64,000 bases of DNA, taken from Deminuibacter soli. GTDB taxonomy: Bacteria > Bacteroidota > Bacteroidia > Chitinophagales > Chitinophagaceae. The notes under the pieces are model-generated. The model saw nothing but the letters and a program-made list of their open reading frames with translations. It made no database searches and was not told the origin of the DNA. The stretch's first letter is position 1; the number at the start of each line of letters is the position of its first letter. The position numbers were made by a program, and so were the translations under genes. Where the stretch lies: assembly GCF_003412455.1 (NCBI RefSeq), contig NZ_QTJU01000001.1:248001-312000 (forward strand), read 5' to 3'. Below are positions 1-22,914 of this stretch, in pieces.

Positions 1-117
1 AAAAAACCAAAAGGAAACGGAATAAAAGATGGCTTTGTGTGGAGGGTCTTGTGTTTATGCCGTAGTCTTTTGGTTTTTTTAGTCGGGTCAGTGCGGTGGC
101 TGCCGCAGCTAACTTTG
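1..117 (+). repeat. Palindromic repeat, copy 1 (left edge cut by window)
   Basis: Bases 1-26 and 54-79 form an imperfect hairpin of about 26 bp. The apical loop contains GCTTTGTGTG at 32-41. The same layout recurs at 614-735 and 7393-7535. The stem base is AACC/GGTT here but AGCC/GGCT in the 7.4-kb copy, so the change is compensatory. The right flank ends in TAACTTTG (110-117), which matches the Bacteroidota -7 promoter box, although no plus-strand gene starts directly after it. Function is unknown. Confidence 0.7.
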
Positions 118-206
118 CTTAATAAAAAACATATCCGCAAAAGCATTGTCGTTGTACAGTTGTTGTAGTTAGGTAAAAAGCAGCCGTTACCGACTGCTTT
201 CATTAT

Positions 207-557
207 TTAGTACTCCTTCGGCAGCATCAGGCAGCCATCAACTAACCAAATAGTGGCAAGGTCATATGGAAAATCGCTAAAGGATATTTCCTGGCTTGTA
301 ACCTTGTTGTGGTTTCCATCGGTACAAAGAATTGAAAATTTGTTATCCTGCTCCCGTTTCAGATCCCATACTTGGAAAGGTTCTTTCTTTACTCTGTCAT
401 TTACCTGATGGCTAATAATTAAATCAATCAACCAGTAAGCTTCGCAATCTTCAGCCATTTGCTTTACTCCATCTGTGTAAACAGTTTTAGCAATGTTGTG
501 ACGGTAGAAATTTTCTGAACCGTTGCTGCATCCGAAGTAGTGATTTGCATTTTTCAT
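207..557 (-). CDS. DUF6876-like small protein
   Basis: This 116-residue soluble protein resembles the DUF6876 family from memory. Family-like features are the early FYRH element (residues 17-20), a YTDGVK segment (27-32), AYWLIDLI near 40-47, the FQVWDL block near 61-66, and a C-terminal SFSDFPYDL...LVDGCLMLP region. Such proteins are common on Bacteroidota plasmids and conjugative elements, and their biochemical role is unknown. There are no membrane segments or catalytic motifs. The gene stands alone between two palindromic repeats, like a single-gene cassette. The start is the ATG at 557. Family assignment is moderately sure; function is open. Confidence 0.6.
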   Translation of the reverse strand: MKNANHYFGCSNGSENFYRHNIAKTVYTDGVKQMAEDCEAYWLIDLIISHQVNDRVKKEPFQVWDLKREQDNKFSILCTDGNHNKVTSQEISFSDFPYDLATIWLVDGCLMLPKEY

Positions 558-613
558 TGTAATAAAATTTAATTTTTAAAAGAAAAAAGAGAAAAAAAGA
601 AAGCATCTACATC

Positions 614-735
614 AGGCGGCGTGGCTGGCTGCAAAGAAGCAACGCAATAAAAGATGGCTTTGTGCGGTGGGCTTTGTGTTTATGGCGGAATTTCTTTGCA
701 GACAGAAGGCGAGGCTGCGGTAGCCGCCTAACTTG
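614..735 (+). repeat. Palindromic repeat, copy 2
   Basis: The outer stem is AGGCGGC (614-620) against GCCGCCT (723-729). The inner stem is 629-651 against 679-701, with 10 outer and 5 inner paired bases around an internal bubble. The loop holds GCTTTGTGCG at 657-666, one base off the family motif. The stem sequence is unrelated to copies 1 and 3 while the loop is conserved, so the fold rather than the stem sequence is being kept. The right end, CTAACTTGC, resembles the ends of the other copies. Confidence 0.7.
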
Positions 736-814
736 CTGCGCTTTTTTTCAAAAAAATTCCAGCTTTTTGATCTTTTTCGGATTTCTTCAATATTTATAAT
801 AAAAAGAATATACA

Positions 815-1030
815 ATGATTAAAACGTACAAAAAACATCAAATCATGGAACCACTAATAAGTGGCTATCCACACATTTTTGAAGAATTAAAAAATCAAAT
901 GATTACAGACATCGAACAAGGATACCAGATTAAGATTGTTACGCAATTGGAAGGATTTCCAATCGAAGATGTAGCTATGCTTAATACAGCCGAAGAAGTT
1001 GAAAATTGGTTTGAGCCGCATTTAAGTTGA
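815..1030 (+). CDS. Small hypothetical protein
   Basis: This is an unrecognised 71-residue acidic protein with no signal peptide or membrane segment. The ATG at 815 is used; a second in-frame ATG at 845 would give a 61-residue product. The composition is protein-like (amphipathic stretches EELKNQMITDIEQGYQ and DVAMLNTAEEVENWF), and the reading frame stays open while the DNA after the stop changes to stop-poor, repeat-rich sequence. It lies between palindromic repeats in accessory DNA. No function can be offered, and it could still be a chance ORF. Confidence 0.45.
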   Translation: MIKTYKKHQIMEPLISGYPHIFEELKNQMITDIEQGYQIKIVTQLEGFPIEDVAMLNTAEEVENWFEPHLS

Positions 1031-1240
1031 AATGTATTCCCTGTGCGTTGGCAAGAAAGGTAAAAGCGCCTGCGGCTAAAAAGAAGCGTAGCTGTGTGGC
1101 ACACTTGTCCACACTGTAGCCAGGGGGCGTGCCGCCATAAGCCAATGGAGAGAGGTACGAACGGAATTGGCTGCGTGCGCCTGCCACAGTGCTGACTAAA
1201 AAGCCGTGCAACGGCGATAGGCAGCAACAGTGAGACGCAA

Positions 1241-1306
1241 GGGTTTGGCGTGTGTTTTTGTATCCTATTAAGCTTTGTGTGTAAGGACAAAAACCATGAC
1301 AAACCC
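1241..1306 (+). repeat. Palindromic repeat, copy 4
   Basis: The left arm (1241-1265) contains GGGTTTG and GTTTTTGT. These pair with ACAAAAAC (1287-1294) and CAAACCC (1300-1306). The loop carries GCTTTGTGTG at 1272-1281, identical to copies 1, 3 and 5. Confidence 0.6.
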
Positions 1307-1433
1307 GTAGCTGTGGCAGGCAGCAAGGCACGCCAAATTATGGGCAGCGGGTGGACTGAATGCGACTGAAGTGAATGGAGGACGTAGTGTAGCGGAATGG
1401 AACCCAGTGAGTATTGTAGCGATGGCTTGCGAA

Positions 1434-1488
1434 AAGGCATGTGCATCACTTGTGCTTTGCTTTGTGTGTTGATGGTGTGCCATGCCTT
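1434..1488 (+). repeat. Palindromic repeat, copy 5
   Basis: AAGGCATG (1434-1441) pairs with CATGCCTT (1481-1488). The loop includes GCTTTGTGTG at 1459-1468. It has a shorter stem than copies 1-4 but the same loop motif. Confidence 0.55.
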
Positions 1489-1831
1489 GCAGCAAATAGC
1501 CAGGCTGCGAACGTGGTGTAATGTAGCGGAACGAAGGACAAAATGAACGAAGTGGCATGAAGGACACAGTAGCTGCCGTGAGGAATGAGGAGGAACTGCA
1601 AGTAGTGTGACAAACTGCGAAGCGTAGCGAAGCACCTGAAAGGCATTGCCAGCTTTGCCAATACCATAAAAGTATATAAACAGATTTATTGGCAATGCTG
1701 CAATGGTTTGGCACATCTGCCTGCTGACGACGAAATGACGAACACCTATTTACCTTGCAGCGTGGGTCAAGTTGATGTGAGAATTATTGGTGTTGGGATT
1801 TATCCAGAAGCTGAACTGAAGCCGAGCAGAA

Positions 1832-1864
1832 AGCAAATGCCATAAGGAACGAATGGCTTTTGCT
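1832..1864 (+). repeat. Hairpin without the loop motif
   Basis: AGCAAATGCCAT (1832-1843) and ATGGCTTTTGCT (1853-1864) pair at 11 of 12 positions around a 9-base loop. The GCTTTGTGTG loop is absent, so this may be a terminator-like hairpin or a decayed repeat relative. Confidence 0.45.
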
Positions 1865-2018
1865 GTGGGAAGCCGAAGGTGGCTAATGGGTTGCCTTGGT
1901 TGTTGACTTAGCTACCGTAGGCGGGGCTAAATCTGCTCAATAGAATTGCTGGAAGTACAAGTGAGTGACACAACAGAAGCTGAATAAAGAGCAGAAGCTG
2001 ATAACAAAAATCACAAAT

Positions 2019-2681
2019 TTACTTTGATGCCTTATCTGCTAAAATCTTGATGTCGCTTACTTCTACTACTTTTTTTTCGTAACCGTTTTGTGCGGCATAA
2101 ATCATTGCTTGTCCTAACTGCCTCACCGTGTTAGCGGTATTTGGAAATACCGTATTGAATGCAGGATAAAGCCATGAAAGGAATTTGTTCATTTTGGAAA
2201 GGTTCTTTTGACCCTCCGTGTATTTCATAGCACCTGGACGAAAAGCAAATACTTGCTTGAATGGCAGTTTCATTAGATCATTTTCTGTCTTGCCTTTTAC
2301 CCGTGCCCACATCAGTCTTCCTTTTTCACTGCTGTCTGTACCTGCTCCACTGATATAAGCAAAAGTCATTTGGGACTTAGGATTTAAGGCTTTGGCAAAG
2401 GCTAAGGTTGTGTCATAAGTAATCCTTGCGTATTCTGATTCTTTCATTCCTACGCTGCTAACTCCTGCACAAAAAAAACAGGCATCGTAACCTGTAAGGT
2501 TCTCATCGTTTTCCTTTAGCGAAAGAAAATCTGGTACAATGTATTCTTTCAGCTTTGGATGTTTAATGCCTATGAGTTTGCGGCTTACACTTAATACTTC
2601 CGTTATTTGTTGATTGGCTAAACATTCTAACAAAACTCCTTCGCCTACCATACCTGTTGTTCCTGTGATAATGACTTTCAT
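2019..2681 (-). CDS. Atypical short-chain dehydrogenase / NAD(P)-binding protein
   Basis: This 220-residue Rossmann-fold protein begins with a dinucleotide-binding GTTGMVGEG near residues 7-15. It continues with CFFCAGVSS, the usual beta4 region of extended/atypical SDRs related to nucleoside-diphosphate-sugar epimerases and human HTATIP2, and a later AFRPGAM segment. The canonical YxxxK pair is not obvious, so it may be a sensor-type or NADPH-binding member and not an active dehydrogenase. It is the last gene of a minus-strand operon, 16 bp after the aldo/keto reductase. The ATG at 2681 is preferred over the upstream TTG at 2687. Confidence 0.8.
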   Translation of the reverse strand: MKVIITGTTGMVGEGVLLECLANQQITEVLSVSRKLIGIKHPKLKEYIVPDFLSLKENDENLTGYDACFFCAGVSSVGMKESEYARITYDTTLAFAKALNPKSQMTFAYISGAGTDSSEKGRLMWARVKGKTENDLMKLPFKQVFAFRPGAMKYTEGQKNLSKMNKFLSWLYPAFNTVFPNTANTVRQLGQAMIYAAQNGYEKKVVEVSDIKILADKASK

Positions 2682-7187: not shown

Positions 7188-7392
7188 AGAAAATCAAATA
7201 ATATTGATAAAAGCCCCTACCAAGGGGGCTCACATGAGGAAGTGAAAGAATAGCCTAACTGCGATGAAAATACAAATACACCGGGTGAAACAAACCAGCA
7301 GGAAACCCAAATGCTACCTACAAGCCAACGCTGAACAAGAACTGACATAACGATACATTTAATAATGAAAAAATAAAATGACGCTATGCCGC
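7188..7392. other. Intergenic, no gene seen
   Basis: AT-rich spacer upstream of the AraC gene. It contains one small hairpin (GCCCCT acca AGGGGGC, about 7211-7227) and no supportable ORF. The palindromic repeat copy 3 follows directly. Confidence 0.5.
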
Positions 7393-7535
7393 AATTGCCG
7401 CCGTTCCCAAGCCAAAAGGAAACGGAATAAATGATGGCTTTGTGTGTTGGGATTGTGTTTATGCCGTAGTCTTTTGGCTGCCGGGCTTTAGAATAGCCGG
7501 GCTTTGTAGTGATGCCGGGGCGGCAATTAACTTTG
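7393..7535 (+). repeat. Palindromic repeat, copy 3 (complete)
   Basis: This is the best-preserved copy. The outer stem AATTGCCGCC (7393-7402) pairs perfectly with GGCGGCAATT (7519-7528). The inner stem 7411-7431 pairs with 7458-7478 at 17 of 21 positions. The loop contains GCTTTGTGTG (7437-7446). The inter-stem segment carries GCCGGGCTTT twice. The right end is TAACTTTG (7528-7535), as in copy 1. It lies at the 3' end of the Argonaute operon and could also stop transcription. Confidence 0.75.
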
Positions 7536-7551
7536 CGGACAATTTTGTTTG

Positions 7552-8217
7552 CTATCTCCTGAAACGACTTCTTCTTTTATATTGACCGAACAAAGATTTT
7601 CGAAATAGAAATATTGAACCAAGAAAAATTAATCCAGCGATCAGCCAATTGTGATTATCTGAATTAGAAACTTCCTCGATGTAAACTTTATCTTCATTCC
7701 ATTGAATAAAGCTTTTGTTTTCTTTGTCTTGTAGCACTGCGTATTTGATTTGATCAGGTTGTGCAGACAACAATAAAGGGTCGCTTAAATCTATCCTTAT
7801 ACAGTTTATTTTGTTGGAGCGATAATGAAGTTTTTTATCAGTGGTTAAATCGTGATGTACAACAATTTCAAAATGCAGTTCTTCATTATTGTATGTTGCA
7901 CTTACATCTGAACGGTATTTATCAATAACAGTTTCTAAAACTGGTTCTGTGTAATTTATTGTCTTCTTCTTTGAATTGACATATCTGTTTTGATACAAAA
8001 GGAACTTTGCAAACTGATGCAAGGCTGTTTCGTTATTACCGATACAAGTTGATTTATCAGAGTGCCGAAAATACCAATCCCTTTGTCCCTGCACTGCTTC
8101 CAATTTCTGTTCACACTGATAGCAAATACAATTACAAGCCAAACCATTCTTTGCATTTCGTACATGTAATGGTAAACCTGTTTCGTTACTCTTGCCTATA
8201 ATAAAAACTGCACTCAC
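7552..8217 (-). CDS. CoiA-like nuclease-fold protein with C-terminal membrane anchor
   Basis: This is a protein of about 221 residues whose N-terminal half resembles the competence protein CoiA: a cysteine cluster (C28, C30, C32, C35), a WYFRH segment with H52, then C58 and the ETALHQFAKFLL element (E63, H67, K71). That zinc-knuckle-plus-PD-(D/E)XK-like layout is typical of CoiA-like domains. A hydrophobic helix near residues 187-206 followed by a basic tail suggests a membrane anchor. The GTG start at 8217 overlaps the upstream TGA by 4 bp and is preferred to the TTG at 8232. It is the last gene of the Argonaute operon and a possible effector or DNA-entry component. Confidence 0.6.
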   Translation of the reverse strand: MSAVFIIGKSNETGLPLHVRNAKNGLACNCICYQCEQKLEAVQGQRDWYFRHSDKSTCIGNNETALHQFAKFLLYQNRYVNSKKKTINYTEPVLETVIDKYRSDVSATYNNEELHFEIVVHHDLTTDKKLHYRSNKINCIRIDLSDPLLLSAQPDQIKYAVLQDKENKSFIQWNEDKVYIEEVSNSDNHNWLIAGLIFLGSIFLFRKSLFGQYKRRSRFRR

Positions 8218-8957
8218 TTGATTACATCCCAATTGTTCAGGTAATATTTCATTTCATGATTACGGTTCCCTAAATAAATTTTATCGTCACGTATATCTAT
8301 TTTAACCCGATACTTTTTGTATGACTGTACATAGATGATTGCTTTTTCTGCAACCTTCTTTTCCATTTCGTGCAATGGTATAATCAGGAATTGTGTTTGC
8401 GTTTTTCCCTTCAGGATAAAGACGTAAAACGTGTTTCCTGCATAATCTTTTTCAAAGGATATTTTACGAACATCAAAATTGTAGGTTTCGTAGGTATTTG
8501 CGTTGGCTGTTTTTACCTGTATCGAAAACAATTTATTGTTTTTGGTTGCTATAATATCCATACCCGAATCAACACTCATAATGCTTGCATTGTAACCTCT
8601 AAATAACAACTCTGAACAAACCAAATGTTCGCCTGCCTTGCCTGTAAAACCTGTTTCCAAAATAATCTTTTCTTCTTCTTCAGCTTCCTCTTCCAATACT
8701 TTCTTTTGCTTCTTTGGCTCCAATACTTTCTTATTGGGATTTATGCCAAAAGTGGATGGTGCGGTTTTTATAAAATCTGAACCTTCACCTTTTTTATTAA
8801 TGTCAGTAATGAGCTGTGCATTCATGCTTGCATCGGGTGTAGCACCTTCTGTTTCTAAAATGCCTTTATCCAAAGCAAGCTTTGTGATTTCTTTGTAATG
8901 AAGAGGCTTGCCAACTTCCGTTAATATTTGAATTGCAGCAGTTCTGAATTTATTCAT
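8214..8957 (-). CDS. HARE-HTH domain protein with PD-(D/E)XK nuclease domain
   Basis: This is a two-domain, 247-residue protein. Residues 1-75 form a HARE-type winged helix (FRTAAIQILTEVGKPLHYKEI...), a DNA-binding module found in RpoE delta, ASXL and many restriction proteins. An acidic/basic linker (80-100) leads to a restriction-endonuclease fold with GE110, D134 and Q147-V-K149, the QxK variant seen in Mrr-like enzymes. It probably cleaves DNA in the cytosol. It lies 5 bp after a HEPN gene and downstream of a catalytically dead Argonaute, so it is the best candidate nuclease effector of the operon. Role inferred from context. Confidence 0.75.
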   Translation of the reverse strand: MNKFRTAAIQILTEVGKPLHYKEITKLALDKGILETEGATPDASMNAQLITDINKKGEGSDFIKTAPSTFGINPNKKVLEPKKQKKVLEEEAEEEEKIILETGFTGKAGEHLVCSELLFRGYNASIMSVDSGMDIIATKNNKLFSIQVKTANANTYETYNFDVRKISFEKDYAGNTFYVFILKGKTQTQFLIIPLHEMEKKVAEKAIIYVQSYKKYRVKIDIRDDKIYLGNRNHEMKYYLNNWDVIK

Positions 8958-9533: not shown

Positions 9534-11606
9534 TTATAAAAACCAAAGACTATTTATTGAATTATCCGGCAAATCTGCATGTTCCATGTATGGCGCTATT
9601 TCAGCAATGATCTCCGGGTATTTTACTGTTACGGGTAAATTCTGTTGTGCAAGACTTTTGAAATACATCCTGCTGAATTGGTACACCTGTTCAATTATTT
9701 CCCTGATGGTTTGTGCATTTTCCAAGTGCTTTTCCATATTGCAATTAATGGAAAGTTTTATCGGAAAGGGATAGCCATCGTTAATGCTAAATGTTTCATT
9801 TGGGTAACGGCTGTTATTGAATAGCAAATATTTGTTCTTGCCGATATTGATGAATGTGCCGCTGTAAGGCATCCATTTGCCAGCCCAGGCAGCATCATAA
9901 GCAATGATGTCTTTTGCTTCTGTTTTATTTACGTGAACAACAAATACAGGTATTGGATTCTGTAGCTGCAGTTGTGCCAATGCAGCTTCAACCGGTGCTA
10001 TTTCTTCGTTGGTCATTTTCTCTTTGTAAAAGTGTATTACCAACCTTTCAGGATTGCCATATTTAGCTGCAAACTCTTTTACTTTTACTGCAATGCTGCC
10101 TGCCATTACATCCGTTTCGTGGCGAAGGAAATAAGCAAACTCATTGAAGTGACCTGTATTGTCAAAACAAAAGGCACTGCTTAAATACTGCACACCATCG
10201 GGATGGCGAAATGCACCAATGCCTATCACCAAAGATTCTTTTGCAGTAGTAACCAATTGCCAGGGAACACCTCCCAGCTTTGCCAGTATTGCCACTGACA
10301 TATTAGTGAGACTCCATTTAAAACCATCATTGGGAGCCTGTACTGTTTCGGGTTCTACAAACTGGCAAGCAATGTTTCTGCGAAGCAACATTTCCTTTAC
10401 CCGTACATAAATTCTTACCTCCTGCCTCCGTGTTTCTTCTCTTGTGAATGGTGTAACATAAATAGCCAGGTATTTGATTGCAGGGTTATTGAATGCTGTT
10501 TTATTAAAAAAGTTTTGAATCTCCGGCAAAGGATTGTTCCTTTCTTTGAAGCAAATATTCATTGCTGTATCAGGGTGAAACAAGATGCCTGCATACTGTG
10601 TTAATCCTTTGTAATGCCCCAAGCCTTTATCGAGGTAAGTCTTCAGCATATCTTTTACCGGCTGATCATCTTCATGGTAAATAAAAAACAAATGCACATT
10701 GTTGTGCGGACATGGTAAAAATGCTCTTTTGTATGGAAATTCCTTTTTGGGTGTACGACCTTTATTTGGCTTGCTAAATGCCAACTCATTACTTGCATCA
10801 TTTACATGGTCTATTAAATGATCGGCTACCTGCAAGAAGCCGCTTTCATGCAAAGGGATGTATTGCTTAAATTCTTCCTTGTTTAAAAAGTAATCGTAAA
10901 AAATATCCAATACTTCTTTGTAGGTTTTGTATTTGTTTTCCTTAATGATTTCAGGGACCGGGAGGTTTAATGCTTTGCCTAAATCAAAATTCAGTACCGG
11001 ATATGTTTTTCTATACTCAGGATGTTCATGCTGTGTTAACTCCTCATAAAAGTATAGTTCGTTGTGCTTAATTACCTTTTTGAAATTTGCCGGTGCTACT
11101 GTTCTTATTAATTCAGCTACACTGGTATTGTAAAGCCTTGACTTGCCATTGTAGGACAATAATAACTCCGGATGATTGCTTACTTCCTGAAACTGTATTT
11201 TTAAAGAGAACTTGTGATAAACAGTAATTTGTTTTGTTGATAGTTTTGTAGCCTTTACCCAAACCTGATTTTGCCCAATGAAACCTGTGCGTACCAGTTG
11301 TTCTTTTTCCTTACGGAAATAATATCTTATCTGCCGGTTATAGTATTTGCGAAGTAAATCCTGGTTCTCTGTTTTAAAATCTATACTTAAAGCGGTAAAA
11401 CCTTCTTTGGCATAATCAAATGTGGTGTAAATAAATTCTGTGTTATCGGAAAGAATGCCGGGGAATATGGTTTCAATATCATTGGGGAATAAGGTACGGT
11501 GCAGCCTGTTAGATTTCTTTGTTTCTTCCAAACTAAAATAAAAGGTTTTTTCCTCCGCAGGAAGATCAAAAGGGATGATATTGAAGTATAGGGTTTGGTT
11601 AGCCAT
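9534..11606 (-). CDS. Catalytically degenerate long prokaryotic Argonaute
   Basis: This 690-residue protein is recognisable as a prokaryotic Argonaute from its MID-PIWI half. Residues consistent with guide 5'-phosphate binding in the MID domain are retained (Y400, K404, Q415, K443, spaced as in Archaeoglobus Piwi), with the hallmark LAKLGGVPWQL at 441-451. The PIWI domain keeps the fold (IGIGAF at 461-466, VIHFYKE at 523-529, FNNSRYPNETFS, VYQFSRMY) but lacks acidic residues at the DEDX positions: GIGA replaces GxD, YKE replaces RDG, and KYPEIIAEI replaces the final D/H segment. It should therefore bind guide and target without slicing. Inactive long Argonautes are known to recruit separate effectors. 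The gene lies 4 bp after a HEPN gene. Confidence 0.9.
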   Translation of the reverse strand: MANQTLYFNIIPFDLPAEEKTFYFSLEETKKSNRLHRTLFPNDIETIFPGILSDNTEFIYTTFDYAKEGFTALSIDFKTENQDLLRKYYNRQIRYYFRKEKEQLVRTGFIGQNQVWVKATKLSTKQITVYHKFSLKIQFQEVSNHPELLLSYNGKSRLYNTSVAELIRTVAPANFKKVIKHNELYFYEELTQHEHPEYRKTYPVLNFDLGKALNLPVPEIIKENKYKTYKEVLDIFYDYFLNKEEFKQYIPLHESGFLQVADHLIDHVNDASNELAFSKPNKGRTPKKEFPYKRAFLPCPHNNVHLFFIYHEDDQPVKDMLKTYLDKGLGHYKGLTQYAGILFHPDTAMNICFKERNNPLPEIQNFFNKTAFNNPAIKYLAIYVTPFTREETRRQEVRIYVRVKEMLLRRNIACQFVEPETVQAPNDGFKWSLTNMSVAILAKLGGVPWQLVTTAKESLVIGIGAFRHPDGVQYLSSAFCFDNTGHFNEFAYFLRHETDVMAGSIAVKVKEFAAKYGNPERLVIHFYKEKMTNEEIAPVEAALAQLQLQNPIPVFVVHVNKTEAKDIIAYDAAWAGKWMPYSGTFINIGKNKYLLFNNSRYPNETFSINDGYPFPIKLSINCNMEKHLENAQTIREIIEQVYQFSRMYFKSLAQQNLPVTVKYPEIIAEIAPYMEHADLPDNSINSLWFL

Positions 11607-12751: not shown

Positions 12752-14098
12752 TTAACTTAAAATAAGAGCTTCTATCTCTTGTTTTGCTTTTTCCAAATCT
12801 TGTTTCGCTTCTGCCTTTAATGCTTCTGCCTTATCAATAAAGGCTTTTATATCAACTACGATTTGCTGTTGTACTTCAGGGCTTGGAATAGGAATAAATA
12901 TTTTCTTCAGTTCTTCTGTTGTAATAGCAGGATAGCTGCCACCACTTGAACGTTGCAACATTTGCTGTAAGCAAATTTGTGTACGCAAAATGTAAAACAG
13001 GTATTCTTTGCTAATATCTGCTCTCAACAATTTTCGTAATACTGCAAAGCCAGTTGAAGCAATAAAACCATTCTGTTGCTCATTAATAAAAGCAATTGCT
13101 CCTCGGTGTGGTCTTGTAGAGGAAACAATAATGTCATTAGTTCTTATCACCATTCGTGCCCTACTTGGGGCTTCGCTAATGGGAATGTAACTGATATTTT
13201 GAATTTTGCCACTAGTAAGGTCTATTTCGCTTATTTCTATGTAAGGAAACTCATTTTCAAAACCATCTTTCTGGTTCCATGTTTCATTTGAAAACTCTAC
13301 TACATCGCCTAACTGAGCATGATTGATTTGGCGGATATTATCAATTAAATCCTTGAAGCCAGGTAAATAGAAATGTGGGTCAATACGGTTTTCAAGCTCT
13401 GATATCTTAGTAACAAATGTTTTCTTATCAACTATTTCCGGAAACTCAAAGCCTATCAATTTAGCTATTGTAAAATCCACTTTGTGGATCATTGTTGCTG
13501 CTTCCGAAAGTTTACCATTATACTGAGTAGTTGCTGCAAAAATGTCTGCCTGAATTTTGGATTGAGTTTCAGTTGACAGTATTGGTAAAACTATTGCATC
13601 AATATTTTCCCTGCTAATGACTGGTTTTCCAGAGCCTTTTAAGCCTTTAAAGAAAAGGTTTCTGCCGATGTAAGTGCTTAGATATGTGGCAACATAATAT
13701 GGATTGATACCTGGCTTTAGTTTTATCCTAATTACATTATCACTAAAAGCACTATTGGCTTCATTTTCACTAATAACACAACAATCTCCAACACCAACAC
13801 CAACTCTTACGAATAATAAGTCACCATTTTGTGTCTTTTTTATGTTAGTTGTATCAGCTACATAGGAAACATCTTCAAGTGTTGGAAATATCATTCTTAC
13901 ATTTTGAGTTCTCAGGTATGGAATACCCTCATCCGTTTGAGGTAAGTTCTTCCCGGTATCAAATGAAATAATGTAATTGGATAGATAATCTAGTTGACTT
14001 GATGCTTGTTTTAATTTTTCCTCTAACTGTTTATATAAAGGATGGTGAAAAATTGGATCCAATCTACCTTCAATTTCGCCCCGGTTGGTGATAAACAC
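12752..14098 (-). CDS. hsdS: Type I-like restriction-modification specificity subunit HsdS
   Basis: This 448-residue protein has two target-recognition halves (about 1-200 and 225-410) joined by conserved helices. Each half has an entry of the type RLDP/RIDPHFY, a central GxPYLRTQNV-like or FPYIEISEI segment, and a C-terminal LPIPSPEVQQQI helix. Two such domains imply recognition of a bipartite DNA site. It would direct the fused nuclease-methyltransferase encoded 20 bp upstream. The start is GTG at 14098, preceded on the minus strand by a purine-rich GGAAGG. It is followed after 1 bp by a HEPN gene. Confidence 0.93.
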   Translation of the reverse strand: MFITNRGEIEGRLDPIFHHPLYKQLEEKLKQASSQLDYLSNYIISFDTGKNLPQTDEGIPYLRTQNVRMIFPTLEDVSYVADTTNIKKTQNGDLLFVRVGVGVGDCCVISENEANSAFSDNVIRIKLKPGINPYYVATYLSTYIGRNLFFKGLKGSGKPVISRENIDAIVLPILSTETQSKIQADIFAATTQYNGKLSEAATMIHKVDFTIAKLIGFEFPEIVDKKTFVTKISELENRIDPHFYLPGFKDLIDNIRQINHAQLGDVVEFSNETWNQKDGFENEFPYIEISEIDLTSGKIQNISYIPISEAPSRARMVIRTNDIIVSSTRPHRGAIAFINEQQNGFIASTGFAVLRKLLRADISKEYLFYILRTQICLQQMLQRSSGGSYPAITTEELKKIFIPIPSPEVQQQIVVDIKAFIDKAEALKAEAKQDLEKAKQEIEALILS

Positions 14099-14118
14099 TT
14101 TATCCTTCCAATCGGGGC

Positions 14119-15933
14119 TTATACGAAAAAATCAGGTGCAGCTTGAAATTGTCTGTACTGCTCTAAAATATCGGGTAGTTCGTTAGCATCATCTCTACCG
14201 GTAGCATCATAACCAATTTTCTCTGCCATTGCCATAAAGATGGGATAGTCTTCTACTACTTCATCTTTTGCTTTTTTACGGGCAAACACCAAACTGCTTT
14301 TTACACCTGCACCAAAATGGCTGAATGCAAATTGTGGTAATGAAATGATAGCAGTAATAACGCAGCGTTCCAGCAAAACTTCTCTCACATACTGCAATGA
14401 TGAATTGGTTAAAATGCCATCGGGCAATACCAAACCCATTCTCCCCTCGCCAGGCTTTAAGAAATCAATACACCTTTCAATAAAAAGTATTTCAGTTTTT
14501 TGGTTTTGTCTGCCTTCGCCTAACTTGTATTGGTCTAAATATTTTTTTTCTTTTTCTGCACTTTTTACAACTGCACCAAATGGGGGATTTGCTAACAACA
14601 AAGAGAACCTGTCTTTAGTAAAACCTTTATGAAGTTCTTTTATATCTTTTAAGAAAGTAAGGCTGTCTGTGCTAATTACATTTGTATGCCCATCATCATG
14701 AATAATCATATTCATTTTGCAGATACGAGCAATCTGGTCGTTAATCTCAATTCCATATAAATTCTTCTTGGCAAAGTTGTGCCAGATATCGTAGGCTTCC
14801 TGTTCATCATAATCCTTTTCTGCGTCGTGCCTTACTGTATCTAACACCGAAAGCAAGAAACCACCGCTGCCGCATGATGGGTCTATTACTAAATCATCAT
14901 GCATTGGCTGCAATAACTTTACTGCAAAATCAATGATGGGTCTTGGTGTAAAAAACTGTCCCATTTTCCCTTTGAAATAATCTACCATGAACTTTTCAAA
15001 GGCTACACCTTTTGTGTCAAGGTCAGTCTTATTCAATGCTAATCCCTGCAAGTGTTCGACTACGCTATAAATAACTTTTGGTTCTAAGCGTATATCTTCT
15101 TTAAACACTTCTTCGTCCTGCTTCTTTGCCTCCTGGTATATTTCATCAATGCGTTCTGCTACTTCGGATGCTGTTTCGTGTGTACCACACTGGAAGCGAT
15201 AGGGCTGCCCTTTTTTGGTTCCATCTTTTTCATCCTTCATTTTACAGAAAAGCAGTTTTGAAACTTCATCAAAAGCTGTTGTTGGCGCTAACTTACCGCC
15301 TTGCCAAACGGTATCGTGACATTTTTCCAATGCACTAATTAAATCATCACGAGAAACTGTTTTAAGGTCCTTAGCTTTATCACCTTTGATAAATTTATAT
15401 TTTGGAGCTTTACCATACTTGACAGGAATATCTGCAATTACATTACGTTCTCGTTCGCTTGGCTTAAAACCTGCTGCATCGAAAGCTGTTCGTGTATTAC
15501 CGGCAACAACAGCTGCGTATTTAGCCCGCATACTATTTGCGTTGCCAAAGGTTTGTTCTATCGCCTGCTTGTACTCAGCATCAGTAATACCTTCTTTTTT
15601 GCATTCTACAACGAGATATGAACTAAGGCATTCATCATCTTCGTAAACAATAATATCTGCCCTATCTTCCGGTGTTCTTCTCGGTACAGTTACTTCAAGA
15701 TTTATTCTTTTTACCGGATACTGATATGTAAGTACCAACTCGGAAAAGTAAGATGCCCTTACTTTTTCTTCCGGGTTTTTAAATGAAGTGCTATAATCTC
15801 TAAAGCAGTGATAAGTAATCTTGCTTTGGTCTGTATTGAGAGAGATTATACCAGCAGCCAACCCTTTGTTGATATTTTGTATCAATTCAGATTTTTTGCT
15901 ATCCGCAGATGTATTAATTTCTTTTAATGCCAT
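14119..15933 (-). CDS. Fused PD-(D/E)XK nuclease and N6-adenine DNA methyltransferase (BcgI-like)
   Basis: This 604-residue protein has an HsdR-N-type endonuclease domain at residues 1-180, with D93 in RADIIVY and E110-C-K112 in VVECKKEG. A helical N12-class region and an HsdM methyltransferase core follow, with motif I DPSCGSGGF (351-359) and catalytic motif IV NPPF (449-452). It should methylate adenine and possibly cleave the same DNA when unmodified. With the separate S subunit this matches BcgI-type IIB systems, which explains why no helicase-type HsdR gene is present. It lies 16 bp after the Fic gene. Annotators will usually label it hsdM. Confidence 0.88.
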   Translation of the reverse strand: MALKEINTSADSKKSELIQNINKGLAAGIISLNTDQSKITYHCFRDYSTSFKNPEEKVRASYFSELVLTYQYPVKRINLEVTVPRRTPEDRADIIVYEDDECLSSYLVVECKKEGITDAEYKQAIEQTFGNANSMRAKYAAVVAGNTRTAFDAAGFKPSERERNVIADIPVKYGKAPKYKFIKGDKAKDLKTVSRDDLISALEKCHDTVWQGGKLAPTTAFDEVSKLLFCKMKDEKDGTKKGQPYRFQCGTHETASEVAERIDEIYQEAKKQDEEVFKEDIRLEPKVIYSVVEHLQGLALNKTDLDTKGVAFEKFMVDYFKGKMGQFFTPRPIIDFAVKLLQPMHDDLVIDPSCGSGGFLLSVLDTVRHDAEKDYDEQEAYDIWHNFAKKNLYGIEINDQIARICKMNMIIHDDGHTNVISTDSLTFLKDIKELHKGFTKDRFSLLLANPPFGAVVKSAEKEKKYLDQYKLGEGRQNQKTEILFIERCIDFLKPGEGRMGLVLPDGILTNSSLQYVREVLLERCVITAIISLPQFAFSHFGAGVKSSLVFARKKAKDEVVEDYPIFMAMAEKIGYDATGRDDANELPDILEQYRQFQAAPDFFV

Positions 15934-15949
15934 GAGTACAATTATTTAG

Positions 15950-16546
15950 TTATGATCTTGCAAAAGTTATTAAAGGTTTTATATCTCCGGCATCAGCAGC
16001 CCTGATAGCTGTTAGATAAGCTTTTCTTGTATCTCCCTGCTTTACCAGGTTTGCTGCACCCCATGTAAATACCGGTTGTTTAAAAATCTTTTCAATAATA
16101 ATATCTGCCATCAAGCGGCTGTGCCTACCGTTTCCGTTTGCAAAGCAATGAATACTTACAATGCGGTGTTTAAACCGCACTGCCATTTCATCTGCACTGT
16201 AAGTAGTATTATCCAACCAGTATTTTGCATCATCCAACAAGCTTCTTAGTTCTATTGGTATCTGCCATTTATCAACCCCAATGTTTTTATTGGTTGTTCT
16301 AAAGTCGCCTGCCCATTGCCAAACATCGCTATACATTTTTTTGTGTACATCCCTTATAAATTCTTCCGTTAAAATTGTCTCAGCTTTGAATGAACGCCTT
16401 AATGTCCATGCAATAGCCTGTTCAATATTCTGCTGTTCAAATTCATCCAGTTCGCCACGGGTGGCAATTGCTTTTATGAGCAAACCTTCTTTCTCGTCTT
16501 CATCCAGCGGCGTTTGCCCGTCAAGATATTCCAGGTTTAATCCCAT
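15950..16546 (-). CDS. Mobile mystery protein B (Fic domain)
   Basis: This 198-residue Fic/DOC-fold protein contains HCFANGNGR (residues 133-141), matching the catalytic H-x-F-x2-GNGR core that transfers AMP from ATP to a hydroxyl side chain. N-terminal LNLEYLDGQTPLDEDEKEGL and the inhibitory-helix region fit the mobile mystery B family (TIGR02613). These genes almost always follow mobile mystery A, as here with a 10-bp overlap, and occur in mobile regions. Whether it acts as toxin, regulator or defence component is unknown. Confidence 0.9.
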   Translation of the reverse strand: MGLNLEYLDGQTPLDEDEKEGLLIKAIATRGELDEFEQQNIEQAIAWTLRRSFKAETILTEEFIRDVHKKMYSDVWQWAGDFRTTNKNIGVDKWQIPIELRSLLDDAKYWLDNTTYSADEMAVRFKHRIVSIHCFANGNGRHSRLMADIIIEKIFKQPVFTWGAANLVKQGDTRKAYLTAIRAADAGDIKPLITFARS

Positions 16547-17151: not shown

Positions 17152-19389
17152 CTAAAGCTTTTGATAATAGCCGGGCTTGGGTTTGGCAAGCAGGTTTGGG
17201 ACGGCATGGTGTAACATGTCGTCAACAGAACGGGCAGCCAGTTTGTATTGTTTGCCTAACTGCACGGCTTCTGCTCTTGTAAATTCTTTTGGCAATGCTT
17301 CAAAGAATTTACGTTTGTGATCGGCAGCCTGGAAAGTGGTGTTGTCCTGTTGCTTTGGCAGGTTGTTAAACATTAAGATGCTGTGCTGGAGATAAATTTC
17401 TGCCAGTTGCAGGGCTGTATTAAAATCAATGTCTGTGCATTCAATCAGTTCTGCTACTTCTGCGTTTTCGAATTTTCTTACACTGGAAAAAAGCATTGCT
17501 ATACGGTAAAGGATAAGCCCGAGCCGTTTTACAATACTGGCTGCATCTTTACCGGTGAACGTAGTAATATCCTGCAACCAGTTTGCACATTTATGATTGA
17601 GTTGCTGCCACTGGGTTTTTGAAAGCGTTATATTGGTTTCACCCATTTTCAAAAACTTTACCATCCTGTACACCTGCAAGGAAAGATTGCTAAAATGATC
17701 TGTGAGGTTTACCTGTGAGCCGTAAGGCGAAACATCTTTCCAGATTTGTTCTACTTCAAAAGCATAAAACAAGAAGCGGCTGAACAAGCCATCTTCGGCA
17801 GATGCAATCAACCCTGTTACCTGGCTCGGCGTGCCTGATAACGCAATGGATAAAGAAGGATTATTGACTTCTATAAATTCATTGTTTGTTTTTCGTGAAC
17901 TGGATAAGCGTTCGTGATGAAAGGATTTGCGAAGCATATCTGAATAGCTCCCCCATTCCTGTTTGAATACATTGCCCAATGTGTCTGCCTCGGTTTCGCA
18001 AATGATGCCTGTTCCTTCGTTCTGCTCAAGGTGAGAAAGAATTTTTGCATAGCTGGTATTAGCCGGAATGAAAACCACTTTGAATTTTGGTTTTACGGGT
18101 GGTTCTTCATTCATGGTTTCACCTTTTTTGAGGGTACGAAAATTCTGCTTGTAGGCTGCATCCTGTTGCTGAAATTGTATATCCGCTTCCTTGCTTGCAT
18201 TTAATACCTGTGTATGGTACTCGTCGGCTAATTGCTTTGCAAACTTCAATGCTCCTTTGCCACTTGCCGCCGGTGCAATGGCGAATGTGAAAAGATTAGG
18301 GTATACTTCCTGCTGTGCATAGATACCTTTTACATTTGGCAGGCAGCCGCTGAGAATACCCAAGGCTCCCGTAAGGAAAACATCTCTTTCCCTGGCATCG
18401 GTAAAAGCTAAAGCACCCTGCTTAATAATATCAGGCATCTGGTGATACAATTCTTCAGGAATTGCCGGAGTGTTTTTCAGATAATCTTCTGCGTTGTGTT
18501 CGGTGCTTTGTTGCAGGTTTGCAATGTTTGCAACGGTTGCAAACTCGTGTACATGATGGTTATAAGCACTGTTTACGGCTGCTGTTACTTCTTTAGCATT
18601 AAGATCATAATGCTGTAAACATAGCTCCAAAGTGTTTTGCAATGGAATACCGGCACGGTTGCAGTTAGATGCCAGCAGGTAAATGTAATTATTACGATTG
18701 TTGGGTTCATACTGTGATTTTTGATTGGTGAAATTGATTTGCATTTCGAAGGCTAAGGCATATTCATTTGGTTCTTCAGTTTGAGTTTGCAAATGTTTTG
18801 TAGGTTGAGGCAGTATGCTTTCTTTTTGAATTATGCCGTTAGTAATTACTGGAAATTTTTCATTGCTGATGTTGCGGTATGTTTCAGGATCATAAGAAAT
18901 AAAGCAAAGCCTTGTGATGTCCTTTCCTGAACGGTCAACGGGCAAGCATAAGTGCTGTTGGTAGTAATCTGCTACCTGATTGTAAGCCTGCTCATGATGT
19001 TCCTGTGTGCTGGTTACTTCAACCAATATTTTTAAACCGTTACCACCCGGGCTGCGAAAGCAGCAAAAAGTGTAAGGGATTGCGGCGGCTTTGTTAAAAG
19101 CCGCCTGCAATTCTTCTTCTTTTAATTTGTCGAGGTCGAGAATGATGAACTGGCTGTATTGTTGTAAGAATTCCAGTTTGCGACCTCCGGCAAATGTTGC
19201 TGATGGTGTAAAAGCCAGCAGTTGTTTTTTAAGTTTGTCCGCTTCTTCTTTTTTATCCTGCCGTATTAATGCCCTTACGTCTTCAACATCCTGTTTGTAT
19301 TTACCTTCTTTGATGTGATTGGTAAGAATGATCAGTGATATATTTTCTATAGGATTATTGAACCCTTTAAAGATTGTAGCTGTTGCCAT
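17152..19389 (-). CDS. VirE N-terminal / DUF3987 primase-helicase-like protein
   Basis: This 745-residue protein is typical of Bacteroidota mobile elements. Residues 1-180 match the BT4734/VirE N-terminal domain, an archaeo-eukaryotic primase fold, with DLD (85-87), SPGGNGLK (113-120) and DITRL (157-161). Residues about 320-640 match DUF3987, with a P-loop-like APAASGKGA near 372-380. It probably serves replication or maintenance of the island. It lies 38 bp after a small HTH gene and its product is encoded apart from the defence operon downstream. Confidence 0.85.
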   Translation of the reverse strand: MATATIFKGFNNPIENISLIILTNHIKEGKYKQDVEDVRALIRQDKKEEADKLKKQLLAFTPSATFAGGRKLEFLQQYSQFIILDLDKLKEEELQAAFNKAAAIPYTFCCFRSPGGNGLKILVEVTSTQEHHEQAYNQVADYYQQHLCLPVDRSGKDITRLCFISYDPETYRNISNEKFPVITNGIIQKESILPQPTKHLQTQTEEPNEYALAFEMQINFTNQKSQYEPNNRNNYIYLLASNCNRAGIPLQNTLELCLQHYDLNAKEVTAAVNSAYNHHVHEFATVANIANLQQSTEHNAEDYLKNTPAIPEELYHQMPDIIKQGALAFTDARERDVFLTGALGILSGCLPNVKGIYAQQEVYPNLFTFAIAPAASGKGALKFAKQLADEYHTQVLNASKEADIQFQQQDAAYKQNFRTLKKGETMNEEPPVKPKFKVVFIPANTSYAKILSHLEQNEGTGIICETEADTLGNVFKQEWGSYSDMLRKSFHHERLSSSRKTNNEFIEVNNPSLSIALSGTPSQVTGLIASAEDGLFSRFLFYAFEVEQIWKDVSPYGSQVNLTDHFSNLSLQVYRMVKFLKMGETNITLSKTQWQQLNHKCANWLQDITTFTGKDAASIVKRLGLILYRIAMLFSSVRKFENAEVAELIECTDIDFNTALQLAEIYLQHSILMFNNLPKQQDNTTFQAADHKRKFFEALPKEFTRAEAVQLGKQYKLAARSVDDMLHHAVPNLLAKPKPGYYQKL

Positions 19390-20199: not shown

Positions 20200-21207
20200 T
20201 TAAGACGGTATTAAAAGGGCAAGTGTAGCGTTATTGTCAAGATAGGTTTGTAATGCTTCTTTCTTTTTGAAATTCCTGAACTCTTTATCAATGTTTGCTG
20301 CGTAACGGCTGTTAAGGAACTTGCGAATGTGCAGGTCGGTTATTTTTTTCTTTCCTCCTTTGAATGGAAAAGGATTGAAATGCTTCTTTTGTATAATGAT
20401 GTGATATACAGCCGCCATCTTTTCAACGTTGCCATGCTTTTTGATGAAACCATATTGGCTATCTATTAAGCCGGTGTTGAATAATTCTTCTTCCACTAAA
20501 GCAAAGCGATCAGACTTTGCAATTATTTCGGTGTAAGGCAATATGTTTTTTTGTTCGCCCCGGATGTCAGCTTTTATTGCATTGAATTTGGGCTCCTGGT
20601 CTTTTACTGCAATTGCTGTGGCAGGTTTTGGAAGATTAAGCGGTGTTGCTTCAATAATAAAAGATGTTTGCGGCGGAGCTTCGCTAAAATATAATGAGTG
20701 TATATCTTCTTCAGTTAGCAAGTCTTCTTTTACAAAAGCTGAAAAGCTGTTTTGAATTTCGAGGTATAACCTGATTAGCTGATATTTTAAATACTGGATT
20801 GTGTAAGCATCATCAGCCTGTTTCTTATCACTGTTCTTGTCAGCAACAATAGCCAATTGAAAATTGTTATTGCTGATTACCGTTTCTGTTTGATTCAGTT
20901 TGTCTTTGAGCTTCTTTGTTAACGTATCGTGTATCCAGAATTTTTTCTCATCATCACCTGCCTGATTCATCAGGGTGTGCAGATTATTGATGTACCTGTT
21001 TGCTTCGTTCGCAAAAAGCAAATGGTAATATTTTCGTTTTGCTGTCAGTGGTTTTGGAAAAGCTAATTCATATAAAGGTTGCTGAACCAGATTTTCCTTT
21101 GGAAGCTCATGCAACATTTGATGAAACTTTTGTTCAGTGGTGGTATTATCCAGCCAAGGTTGCTGCACCAGCAAAATATTGTGATAAAGTTCTAAGGTGT
21201 TATTCAT
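20200..21207 (-). CDS. Integrase-companion protein of unknown function
   Basis: This 335-residue soluble protein is largely helical and rich in lysine and glutamine. It has no recognised catalytic motif; a DUF6617-like affiliation is possible but I cannot confirm it. The C-terminal part (GGKKKITDLHIRKFLNSRYAANIDKEFRNF) looks like an RteC-type nucleic-acid-binding tail. The start codon overlaps the recombinase stop by 4 bp (ATGA), so it is co-translated with the recombinase. Such companions are common on Bacteroidota integrative elements. Confidence 0.65.
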   Translation of the reverse strand: MNNTLELYHNILLVQQPWLDNTTTEQKFHQMLHELPKENLVQQPLYELAFPKPLTAKRKYYHLLFANEANRYINNLHTLMNQAGDDEKKFWIHDTLTKKLKDKLNQTETVISNNNFQLAIVADKNSDKKQADDAYTIQYLKYQLIRLYLEIQNSFSAFVKEDLLTEEDIHSLYFSEAPPQTSFIIEATPLNLPKPATAIAVKDQEPKFNAIKADIRGEQKNILPYTEIIAKSDRFALVEEELFNTGLIDSQYGFIKKHGNVEKMAAVYHIIIQKKHFNPFPFKGGKKKITDLHIRKFLNSRYAANIDKEFRNFKKKEALQTYLDNNATLALLIPS

Positions 21208-22307
21208 AGTTCTAATTGAATGCGATTTGCAGCTTCCTTTTTTTTCTTATCAATCACCTTTGCATAAACCTCGGTTGTTTTCAAATGACGATGCCCCAGC
21301 ATTTTTGAAACTGTATAAATATCGGTTCCTAAATTTAATTGTAATGTAGCATAAGTATGCCTGGCACAATGGAAAGTGATGTGCTTTGTGATACCGGCTT
21401 TCATTACCCACTCTCTTAGTTTTAAGTTATTCCAGGCACTGTACTTTAAATCTTCAAAAATTGCCTGCTCCGGTTTGCCTCTTTCGCCTAATAAATCGAA
21501 CGCCTGCTTTGATATAGGTAACGTTTCTGAACCCTTCGTTTTCTTCTGCCGGAACCGGATGTAATAATCATTGCCTGAACTCTGTATTTCAGACCAAACA
21601 AGTTTTTTAATATCAGACCATCTTAGCCCGGTTAATGCAGAAAAAATAAAAGCCTGCTTTAGTATTGGTAAATCACATTCTTCTTTTGCTGCCGCCTGCA
21701 ATTCTTCGAAAGTTAAAAACTCTCTGCTTGCATCATCAGGTTTTATACAATCAACCTGATTTGCCGGGTTGGTTAAAATGATGCCTGCTTTTACGGCTTC
21801 CTTTAAAGCTGCGGTTACTTTACTGTAATACGATGCCTGGGAGTTTTGAAGCAATGACTTTTTGTTTTTGGTTTTTGCGGTGTGCTTCAAATAGTATTTG
21901 AAATCTTCGAGCCAGGCTTTATCAATCTCTTTGAAAGTAATATCAAACTTTGCAAACTCCTGCAAGTGCTTTAACGTACTGTTCCAGTTGCCCCAATTGC
22001 CATCACTATCTTTTCTTTTTTCTGTAAGCATTTCAAAGTATGCAAGGAAGCTGCCTTTAGTTTTCTCCGTATCTCTAAAACCAAATTCTTCATTCTTGAT
22101 TTGCAGATGCCGCTTTGATTTGATGGCTTCTGCTAAAGCCAACGTTTCATCATTGTGTTTCTTCTGCTCCTTGGTAAGCTTACCTTTTTCCGGTGTTGGG
22201 AACAGGTACATTTTTAAATATTCATACTTACGTTTGCCATCTTCGTAGTAGTCTAAATAAAGGCTGACCTTATCGCCTTTCTGACGTTGTCTAAGCGTTA
22301 CATTCAT
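21204..22307 (-). CDS. Tyrosine site-specific recombinase (integrase)
   Basis: This 367-residue Bacteroidota-type integrase has an arm-DNA-binding domain (about 1-75), a SAM-like core-binding domain (85-185) and a catalytic domain. The catalytic residues are present: R229 (GLRW), H313-x2-R316, H339 (LGHRH) and nucleophile Y348. It is expected to integrate and excise the island between attP and the chromosomal site, here the 3' end of mnmE 581 bp away. The upstream excisionase-like gene overlaps its start and the companion gene overlaps its end. Confidence 0.95.
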   Translation of the reverse strand: MNVTLRQRQKGDKVSLYLDYYEDGKRKYEYLKMYLFPTPEKGKLTKEQKKHNDETLALAEAIKSKRHLQIKNEEFGFRDTEKTKGSFLAYFEMLTEKRKDSDGNWGNWNSTLKHLQEFAKFDITFKEIDKAWLEDFKYYLKHTAKTKNKKSLLQNSQASYYSKVTAALKEAVKAGIILTNPANQVDCIKPDDASREFLTFEELQAAAKEECDLPILKQAFIFSALTGLRWSDIKKLVWSEIQSSGNDYYIRFRQKKTKGSETLPISKQAFDLLGERGKPEQAIFEDLKYSAWNNLKLREWVMKAGITKHITFHCARHTYATLQLNLGTDIYTVSKMLGHRHLKTTEVYAKVIDKKKKEAANRIQLEL

Positions 22308-22887: not shown

Positions 22888-22914
22888 TTACTTTCCAATA
22901 CAAAACTTACTGAA
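22888..22914 (-). other. Probable island attachment site in the mnmE 3' end
   Basis: The last codons of mnmE read TTTTGTATTGGAAAGTAA on the minus strand. This differs at two positions from the known 18-bp attachment site of Salmonella genomic island 1 in the same gene, because the terminal FCIGK codons are conserved. The recombinase and GGCAAC repeats lie immediately beyond. I could not find the matching second copy elsewhere in the window, so the far boundary is not located. Confidence 0.5.

Follow-up and report, generated by a model that had tools for sequence, protein, structure and literature searches.

The stretch at positions 1031–2018 of the window (the whole 64,000-nucleotide stretch of Deminuibacter soli DNA that was analyzed) raises the question of what about 1 kb of strand-biased, hairpin-rich DNA without an evident gene could specify. 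From the sequence alone, an earlier note had proposed that its size and structure would suit a large, ornate non-coding RNA carried by a mobile element. Here, we show that 1058–1766 is non-coding, that its structure is kept by compensatory change, and that it is one of the backbone parts of an integrative element. The suggestion is thereby supported, in the absence of expression data. Our preferred reading, to which we give a probability of about 50%, is that 1058–1766 encodes a structured RNA of ~700 nt (hereafter, the RNA) that belongs to the backbone of Bacteroidota integrative elements and has a role in trans in their life cycle; its transcription, strand, and function are inferred.

Sequence composition and absence of a coding gene

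The purine bias described for the plus strand was reproduced in 500-base windows across 1001–2000, where GC skew was +0.23 to +0.25 and AT skew was positive; both skews dropped beyond 2000. The reiterated motifs were likewise found by direct reading, GTAGCGGAA at 1389 and 1523 and GAAGGAC at 1533 and 1559. A related pattern, GNANNGNANNGNA, occurred five times on the plus strand and once on the minus strand of 1055–1768, and 500 base shuffles of this interval gave a mean of 0.4 and a maximum of 4. As for the stable folding ascribed to the region, the fold energy of 1055–1768 gave z = −3.76 on the plus strand compared with dinucleotide shuffles, and z = −1.75 on the minus strand.

No convincing gene had been recognized on either strand, and a comparison of 25 homologues agreed with this. 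Variability by codon position was 0.236, 0.228, and 0.250, showing no three-base rhythm, and only 44 of 464 indels were multiples of three. The best stop-free runs in these homologues ranged from 80 to 246 codons on the minus strand and reached up to 107 codons on the plus strand. Because the minus-strand runs shift with the indels, they were taken as a by-product of composition. Thus, coding on either strand was ruled out by the absent codon rhythm and the indel lengths. A small ORF of 71 aa (815–1030, plus strand) lies in a variable stretch directly 5′ of the RNA and had no Pfam match. The gene at 207–557 (minus strand) encodes a DUF6876 protein (Pfam, 9.9e-41), and such a gene often stands beside the RNA (7 of 21 loci).

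Homologues of the conserved sequence

The idea that many copies of the sequence exist in its own genome was rejected, as only a single copy is present. By DNA similarity at E ≤ 0.01, matches were obtained in 122 of 294 Chitinophagaceae genomes; among the matches listed, most spanned only the last ~80 bases, the site of a short dispersed repeat. This intergenic repeat of ~50 bp (1934–1985, plus strand; core GTACAAGTGAGTGACACAAC) is dispersed in many Chitinophagaceae genomes, and its own genome holds one copy (≤3 mismatches to the 27-base core). Matches below 1e-20 to the part 5′ of the repeat were found in 18 genomes besides its own. A sequence profile of the RNA (nhmmer) matched 31 of 142 loci, and a copy in Ilyomonas limi (L053) represents the same place as L041.

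A covariance model, R1, was based on a 3′ multi-branch domain of the RNA (1591–1730, plus strand). With this model, L151 and, with less certainty, L160 were added as loci that have the domain; L090, L123, L124, L150, and L172, which were known from the profile, were also recovered. Weak R1 matches in L056, L084, L085, L102, L141, L142, and L153 were rejected as hairpin repeats with a common CCCGAAGGG branch, not the full domain, and weak opposite-strand matches in L148 and L163 were rejected as located on a palindromic stem. Two further loci (L057 and L133) scored like the weak hairpin-repeat matches; their alignments were not read, and they were not counted as RNA homologues.

Conserved secondary structure

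Covariation was analyzed in an alignment of 25 loci with E < 1e-60, from which L053 was left out as a duplicate of L041; it had 776 columns and a mean identity of 0.655. Under two tree-preserving nulls, 7 and 11 column pairs were significant at E ≤ 0.05. Pairing was kept in 80–100% of sequences for nine of the 11, and the remaining two, 656–692 (an out-of-register neighbor) and 243–253, fell short of this. A split test was also employed, in which a structure folded from 15 sequences was counted on 10 held-out ones, and in reverse. In the 10 held-out homologues, 80.1% of 1570 cells paired, compared with 33–43% when partners were slid by 1–3 columns, and a two-sided change was observed in 94 of 184 pairs, compared with 37–49 for slid partners. 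The reverse test showed 89.5% paired cells (29–47% slid) and a two-sided change in 55 of 143 pairs (14–21 slid). The comparative folding that had been proposed as a check thus came out in favor of a kept structure, and the outcome that would have refuted the suggestion, homologues decaying at random with no compensatory change, was not observed. Covariation of this kind could be equally compatible with a folded single-stranded DNA. Counts of G-U versus A-C, compared as a strand test, were 122 to 42 and 79 to 33, with the ratios in slid controls spread from 0.24 to 5.27; given this spread, the counts were not used as evidence for the folded strand.

The extent of the molecule was set by a closing helix, P1, in which the 5′ arm AGGTAAA (1058–1064, plus strand) pairs with the 3′ arm TTTACCT (1749–1755, plus strand). 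In P1, 93% of 148 cells were paired and 12 showed double changes, compared with 26–58% and 1–2 for slid partners. The 5′ arm is missing in L046, L047, and L048, unclear in L050 and L128, and imperfectly paired in L043. The conserved molecule was therefore placed at about 1058–1766 on the plus strand, and this candidate full molecule rests on the nhmmer family (31 loci), the split covariation, and the closing helix. It lies inside the interval 1031–2018 that had been pointed out and fills only part of it; 1769–2010 (plus strand) is a separate 3′ module. This module was found in four relatives (L033, L034, L035, and L148), its two halves being 1.1 kb apart in L035, and its single-sequence fold on the plus strand was no better than those of shuffles (z = −0.83). 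By eye, a short palindrome like GGAAACGTTTCC stands directly before the conserved 5′ end in L037, L049, L050, and L051; elsewhere, other short palindromes apparently replace it, and these may be an operator or a small hairpin.

Within the molecule, the 140-nt domain at 1591–1730 showed at least one two-sided compensation in 24 of 35 pairs (22 sequences), in addition to the matches of its model. Another part is a rod, the GNA/GNA ladder, having four internal loops with two standard pairs between loops. Its 5′ side (1384–1401, plus strand) has loops at 1384–1386, 1389–1391, 1394–1396, and 1399–1401, and its 3′ side (1518–1535, plus strand) at 1518–1520, 1523–1525, 1528–1530, and 1533–1535. The GTAGCGGAA and GAAGGAC motifs sit on opposite sides of this rod. 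The G and A were conserved on both sides in 17, 22, 20, and 20 of 25 homologues for the four loops, and the middle base varied. GNA/GNA loops are of a kind that forms sheared G-A pairs, which may hold here by analogy, and such zipper loops are stable in DNA too. By its size (698 nt between the outer P1 ends) and non-coding nature, and by an extensive covarying fold seen with the tree-aware nulls, the split test, 1591–1730, and P1, the sequence resembles the large ornate non-coding RNAs, of which an abundant discrete transcript and a homo-oligomer or nanocage would be further marks.

No known RNA family was matched in Rfam, strict or lax. The window gave no match at gathering score, and a lax search detected no GOLLD, ROOL, OLE, HEARO, or group I or II intron at E ≤ 5 in window positions 1–2100 and none of these at E ≤ 2 in 11 homologue loci.

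The MAKQTG protein and its neighbors

An SNase gene and the gene of a 268-aa protein, MAKQTG (plus strand, window −1252 to −449), are located upstream of the window. The MAKQTG protein is encoded at no fewer than 580 loci, and the 80 listed belong to Bacteroidota or an unclassified viral-type contig; at E ≤ 1e-10, it was found in 120 of 394 Chitinophagaceae genomes. Searches of Pfam with 48 members gave a best E of 0.015, and the top match in the PDB (E 0.62) was a designed protein; no convincing relative came from these two databases, nor from PHROGs or NCBIfam. In the viral collections searched, the MAKQTG protein occurred in one contig only.

The RNA and the MAKQTG gene occurred together in 26 of 31 RNA loci (two of these, L041 and L053, being an identical place), and the RNA was downstream of the gene on the same strand in all 26. 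Conversely, the profile detected the RNA in only 26 of 137 MAKQTG loci. Three loci (L043, L046, and L047) have the RNA and no MAKQTG gene within the 17–20 kb examined, and two more without the gene (L048 and L050) are truncated where their contigs stop. The RNA copies of L043 (9923–10644) and L046 (11069–11742) are flanked on one side by an SSB-like gene and on the other by a gene of >1400 codons that appears RHS-like by eye.

Gene order near MAKQTG was conserved in 81 loci, with SNase-like genes in 66, DUF5675 in 37, and DUF6943 in 46; these clusters were named as families from one or two members. Guessing by eye, we regard DUF5675 as a lysis enzyme and two small neighbors as holins. A DUF5675 protein has been named in a Vibrio phage, with no function given in the part of that article available to us (PMC10671443).

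In Kaistella and Chryseobacterium (9 loci), the same position holds another conserved non-coding sequence, for which the split test gave 0.81 and 0.78 paired, compared with 0.40–0.51 when slid. A set of 27 loci from Flavobacterium and some others, two of which are common to both sets, showed a weaker signal (0.67–0.69 versus 0.45–0.50 slid). These structured regions make it likely that the islands generally carry a large RNA, which is shown only in part.

The integrative element and its backbone

Direct att repeats at mnmE delimited the element at window positions of about −1950 to 22905, that is, about 24.9 kb. The insertion site is the 3′ end of mnmE, a gene whose product has FCIGK as its last residues. 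The attR (CCAATACAAAA, 22895–22905) lies in the 3′ end of mnmE, and attL is about 1950 bases before window position 1. Conserved blocks on the minus strand carry a tyrosine recombinase (integrase; 21204–22307; Pfam Phage_integrase, 2.2e-19, with matches to Phage_int_SAM_5 and Arm-DNA-bind_5) and a BT4734-like N/DUF3987 protein (17152–19389; Pfam scan). With an integrase at one end and direct att repeats at both ends, which are only 11 bp in its own case, this is a tyrosine-recombinase integrative element. GGCAAC repeats in 100 kb clustered only at both element ends (5 and 4 per 200 bases), and elsewhere, among the windows listed, reached at most 2 per 200 bases. None of the 20 ORFs of the element scanned with Pfam matched a relaxase or conjugation family.

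We compared 17 islands. In 10 of them, a relative of the window integrase was encoded on the minus strand, at +18 to +27 kb; G082 had matches only on the left, and six had no match. The RNA was detected in 11 of the 17, eight of which have the downstream integrase, and the DUF3987 gene was found in seven. Att direct repeats joining both ends were observed in 9 of 10 islands tested. They were at tRNA genes in seven islands (43, 44, 19, 50, 17, 19, and 18 bp; the 17-bp case is G244, in which no RNA was detected) and at the mnmE 3′ end in G140 (18 bp) and our element (11 bp); in G304, no att repeat was found beyond short arm-type repeats. In one set, 18 of 60 loci had a tRNA gene, and in another, 8 of 47 did, with at least two places in both sets. 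The tRNA gene was 0.2–0.8 kb upstream of the MAKQTG gene on the same strand in 25 of the 26 tRNA-bearing loci, and 1.2 kb upstream in L168.

Our element and G140 have in common the left end, the RNA with the 3′ module (1028–2024, 84%), the hairpin module hp3, the DUF3987 block, and the integrase block. Further matches were 78 bases of an Argonaute gene and hairpin cross-matches, and the remainder had no blastn match. As the RNA is kept in both while the rest differs, it is part of the backbone and not cargo. The cargo of our element includes a prokaryotic Argonaute (Piwi; 9534–11606, minus strand; Pfam 2.5e-9, PADLOC pAgo 6.2e-232), type I restriction-modification specificity and methyltransferase genes (12752–15933, minus strand; PADLOC), and a Fic protein. 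Near the Argonaute, the cargo gene at 8214–8957 has a HARE-HTH domain and a PD-(D/E)XK match just under the Pfam cut-off. A 690-aa Argonaute was found as cargo ≤10 kb from the RNA in 3 of 21 loci; elsewhere, it is located at 16538–18616 in L033 and at about 16600–18690 in L039.

The RNA was absent from 50,697 phage records, and two exact motifs of it were not found in viral contigs; homologues that would mark a phage sequence were thus not seen in these collections. A plasmid or phage origin was rejected on the basis of DNA similarity, which gave no match.

Hairpin modules

Three hairpin modules were identified on the plus strand. The first, hp1 (1–79), has arms at 1–26 and 54–79 that are 85% complementary, and its core occurred three times in the window, compared with 0.03 expected. 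In hp2 (600–750), the arms at 625–651 and 679–705 are 78% complementary and homologues were found; the whole 151-nt stretch was no more stable than shuffles on the plus strand (z = +0.24). The third, hp3 (7344–7550), lies between two cargo slots and is 87% identical to its counterpart in G140, the flanking genes on both sides being different in the two elements; its plus-strand fold was no better than those of shuffles (z = −1.37). In loci with detected RNA, 23 of 23 hairpin-core matches, two of them doubtful, were on the RNA’s strand. In hp1–hp3, all three of which share the RNA’s strand, a conserved core is combined with complementary arms whose sequence differs; in other genomes, outer arms of this type enclose the CCCGAAGGG branch, which is also present in the large RNA.

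Discussion

The compensatory changes leave the nature of the folded molecule to be weighed. The fold may work as single-stranded DNA, forming an attC-like site of recombination, replication, or transfer for cargo exchange. The RNA and hp3 stand at the borders of variable cargo slots, all 23 hairpin-core matches (two doubtful) share the RNA’s strand, the L043 and L046 copies are near an SSB-like gene (by eye), and DNA, too, supports stable zipper loops of the GNA/GNA kind. No promoter-like box was enriched upstream either; the Bacteroidota −7 box was found just upstream of the RNA in 2 of 24, compared with 2.2 expected. However, att repeats of the ordinary kind mark the element ends, at tRNA genes or mnmE, and 700 nt with many domains far exceeds single-stranded DNA sites, all of those known to us being far smaller. 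We regard such a site as possible and rather unlikely. A structured untranslated or antisense region regulating its neighbors would be a very large cis element, and we consider it improbable. Of the 27 copies that have a gene downstream, 20 have it on the minus strand, convergent with the RNA (28 copies were examined, three having been left out as duplicate or cut); nevertheless, the genes on both sides are exchanged freely, which is hard to reconcile with a cis regulator tied to one particular gene.

Size, ornate fold, and mobile-element home would also suit a divergent member of GOLLD, ROOL, OLE, HEARO, or the group I or II introns, yet the strict and lax Rfam searches detected none of these within the limits given above, making this quite improbable. 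That the region is a decayed gene or a composition artefact without function, as its long minus-strand open frames and strong skew might suggest, is hardly credible in view of the absent codon rhythm and the compensatory changes in held-out homologues.

We thus return to the ~700-nt RNA as the preferred reading. Such an RNA would be transcribed from the plus strand, as inferred without expression data, and may act in trans in the life cycle of the element, in excision, replication, release, or transfer. Its working form might be several RNA copies assembled together, or a ribonucleoprotein that includes MAKQTG, with no physical link between RNA and protein at hand; hp1–hp3 would be its small companions. 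A parallel may be drawn by analogy with GOLLD and ROOL, which may serve phages. A more far-reaching proposal, which we hold doubtful, is that a phylum-wide class of Bacteroidota islands is centered on a dedicated pair, MAKQTG and a structured RNA of very large size, the RNA sequence being clade-specific and its place fixed. The two would assemble into a ribonucleoprotein or a particle for exit or spread of the island by neither conjugation nor an ordinary phage; in many members, a putative lysis cassette (DUF5675 and two small proteins) would take part as well.

Few bacterial RNA classes of this size are known, and most are without a settled function. The RNA marks a widespread island family, some members of which carry defence genes. 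Because its setting is fixed, with a conserved neighbor protein, an integrase, and defined ends, its function is testable by deletion and transfer assays. No description of the RNA or the element was found in the literature searched, which comprised mostly the starts of abstracts and left most subscription journals outside; the accessible part of one article (PMC8040213) held nothing on the RNA.

Comparison with known systems

Like integron attC arrays, the structured modules here have one orientation and border exchangeable genes. Unlike in integrons, the att repeats in the island of this recombinase are of the ordinary kind and lie at tRNA genes or mnmE, and we know of no integron counterpart of a 700-nt module. 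SGI1 is an example of a genomic island at tRNA genes or mnmE/trmE. Our element resembles such islands in its tyrosine recombinase, its att repeats, and its site at the 3′ end of a tRNA gene or mnmE; it differs from them in that MAKQTG and a structured RNA of large size are part of the backbone. OLE is a large ornate bacterial RNA that works with proteins. The RNA here is also large and ornate; however, it had no Rfam match, and to our knowledge, OLE has no host or gene neighborhood comparable to that of the RNA.

GOLLD RNAs, many of which exceed 800 nt, have an elaborate covarying fold, are encoded by mobile elements, and are described as of unknown function in the available part of a recent article (PMC12286853). 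The RNA here is similarly large, with an elaborate covarying fold and a mobile-element home. In contrast to GOLLD, it had no Rfam match and resides in a Bacteroidota integrative element instead of a phage, and the tRNA genes serve as sites of integration and do not form tRNA islands. ROOL has 659 nt in one example, according to the same part of that article (PMC12286853). The RNA shares with it a similar length, a complex fold, and a mobile-element home, and differs in having no Rfam match and no occurrence in the 50,697 phage records or, for two exact motifs, in viral contigs. Of all these systems, GOLLD and ROOL come closest in kind to the RNA here.
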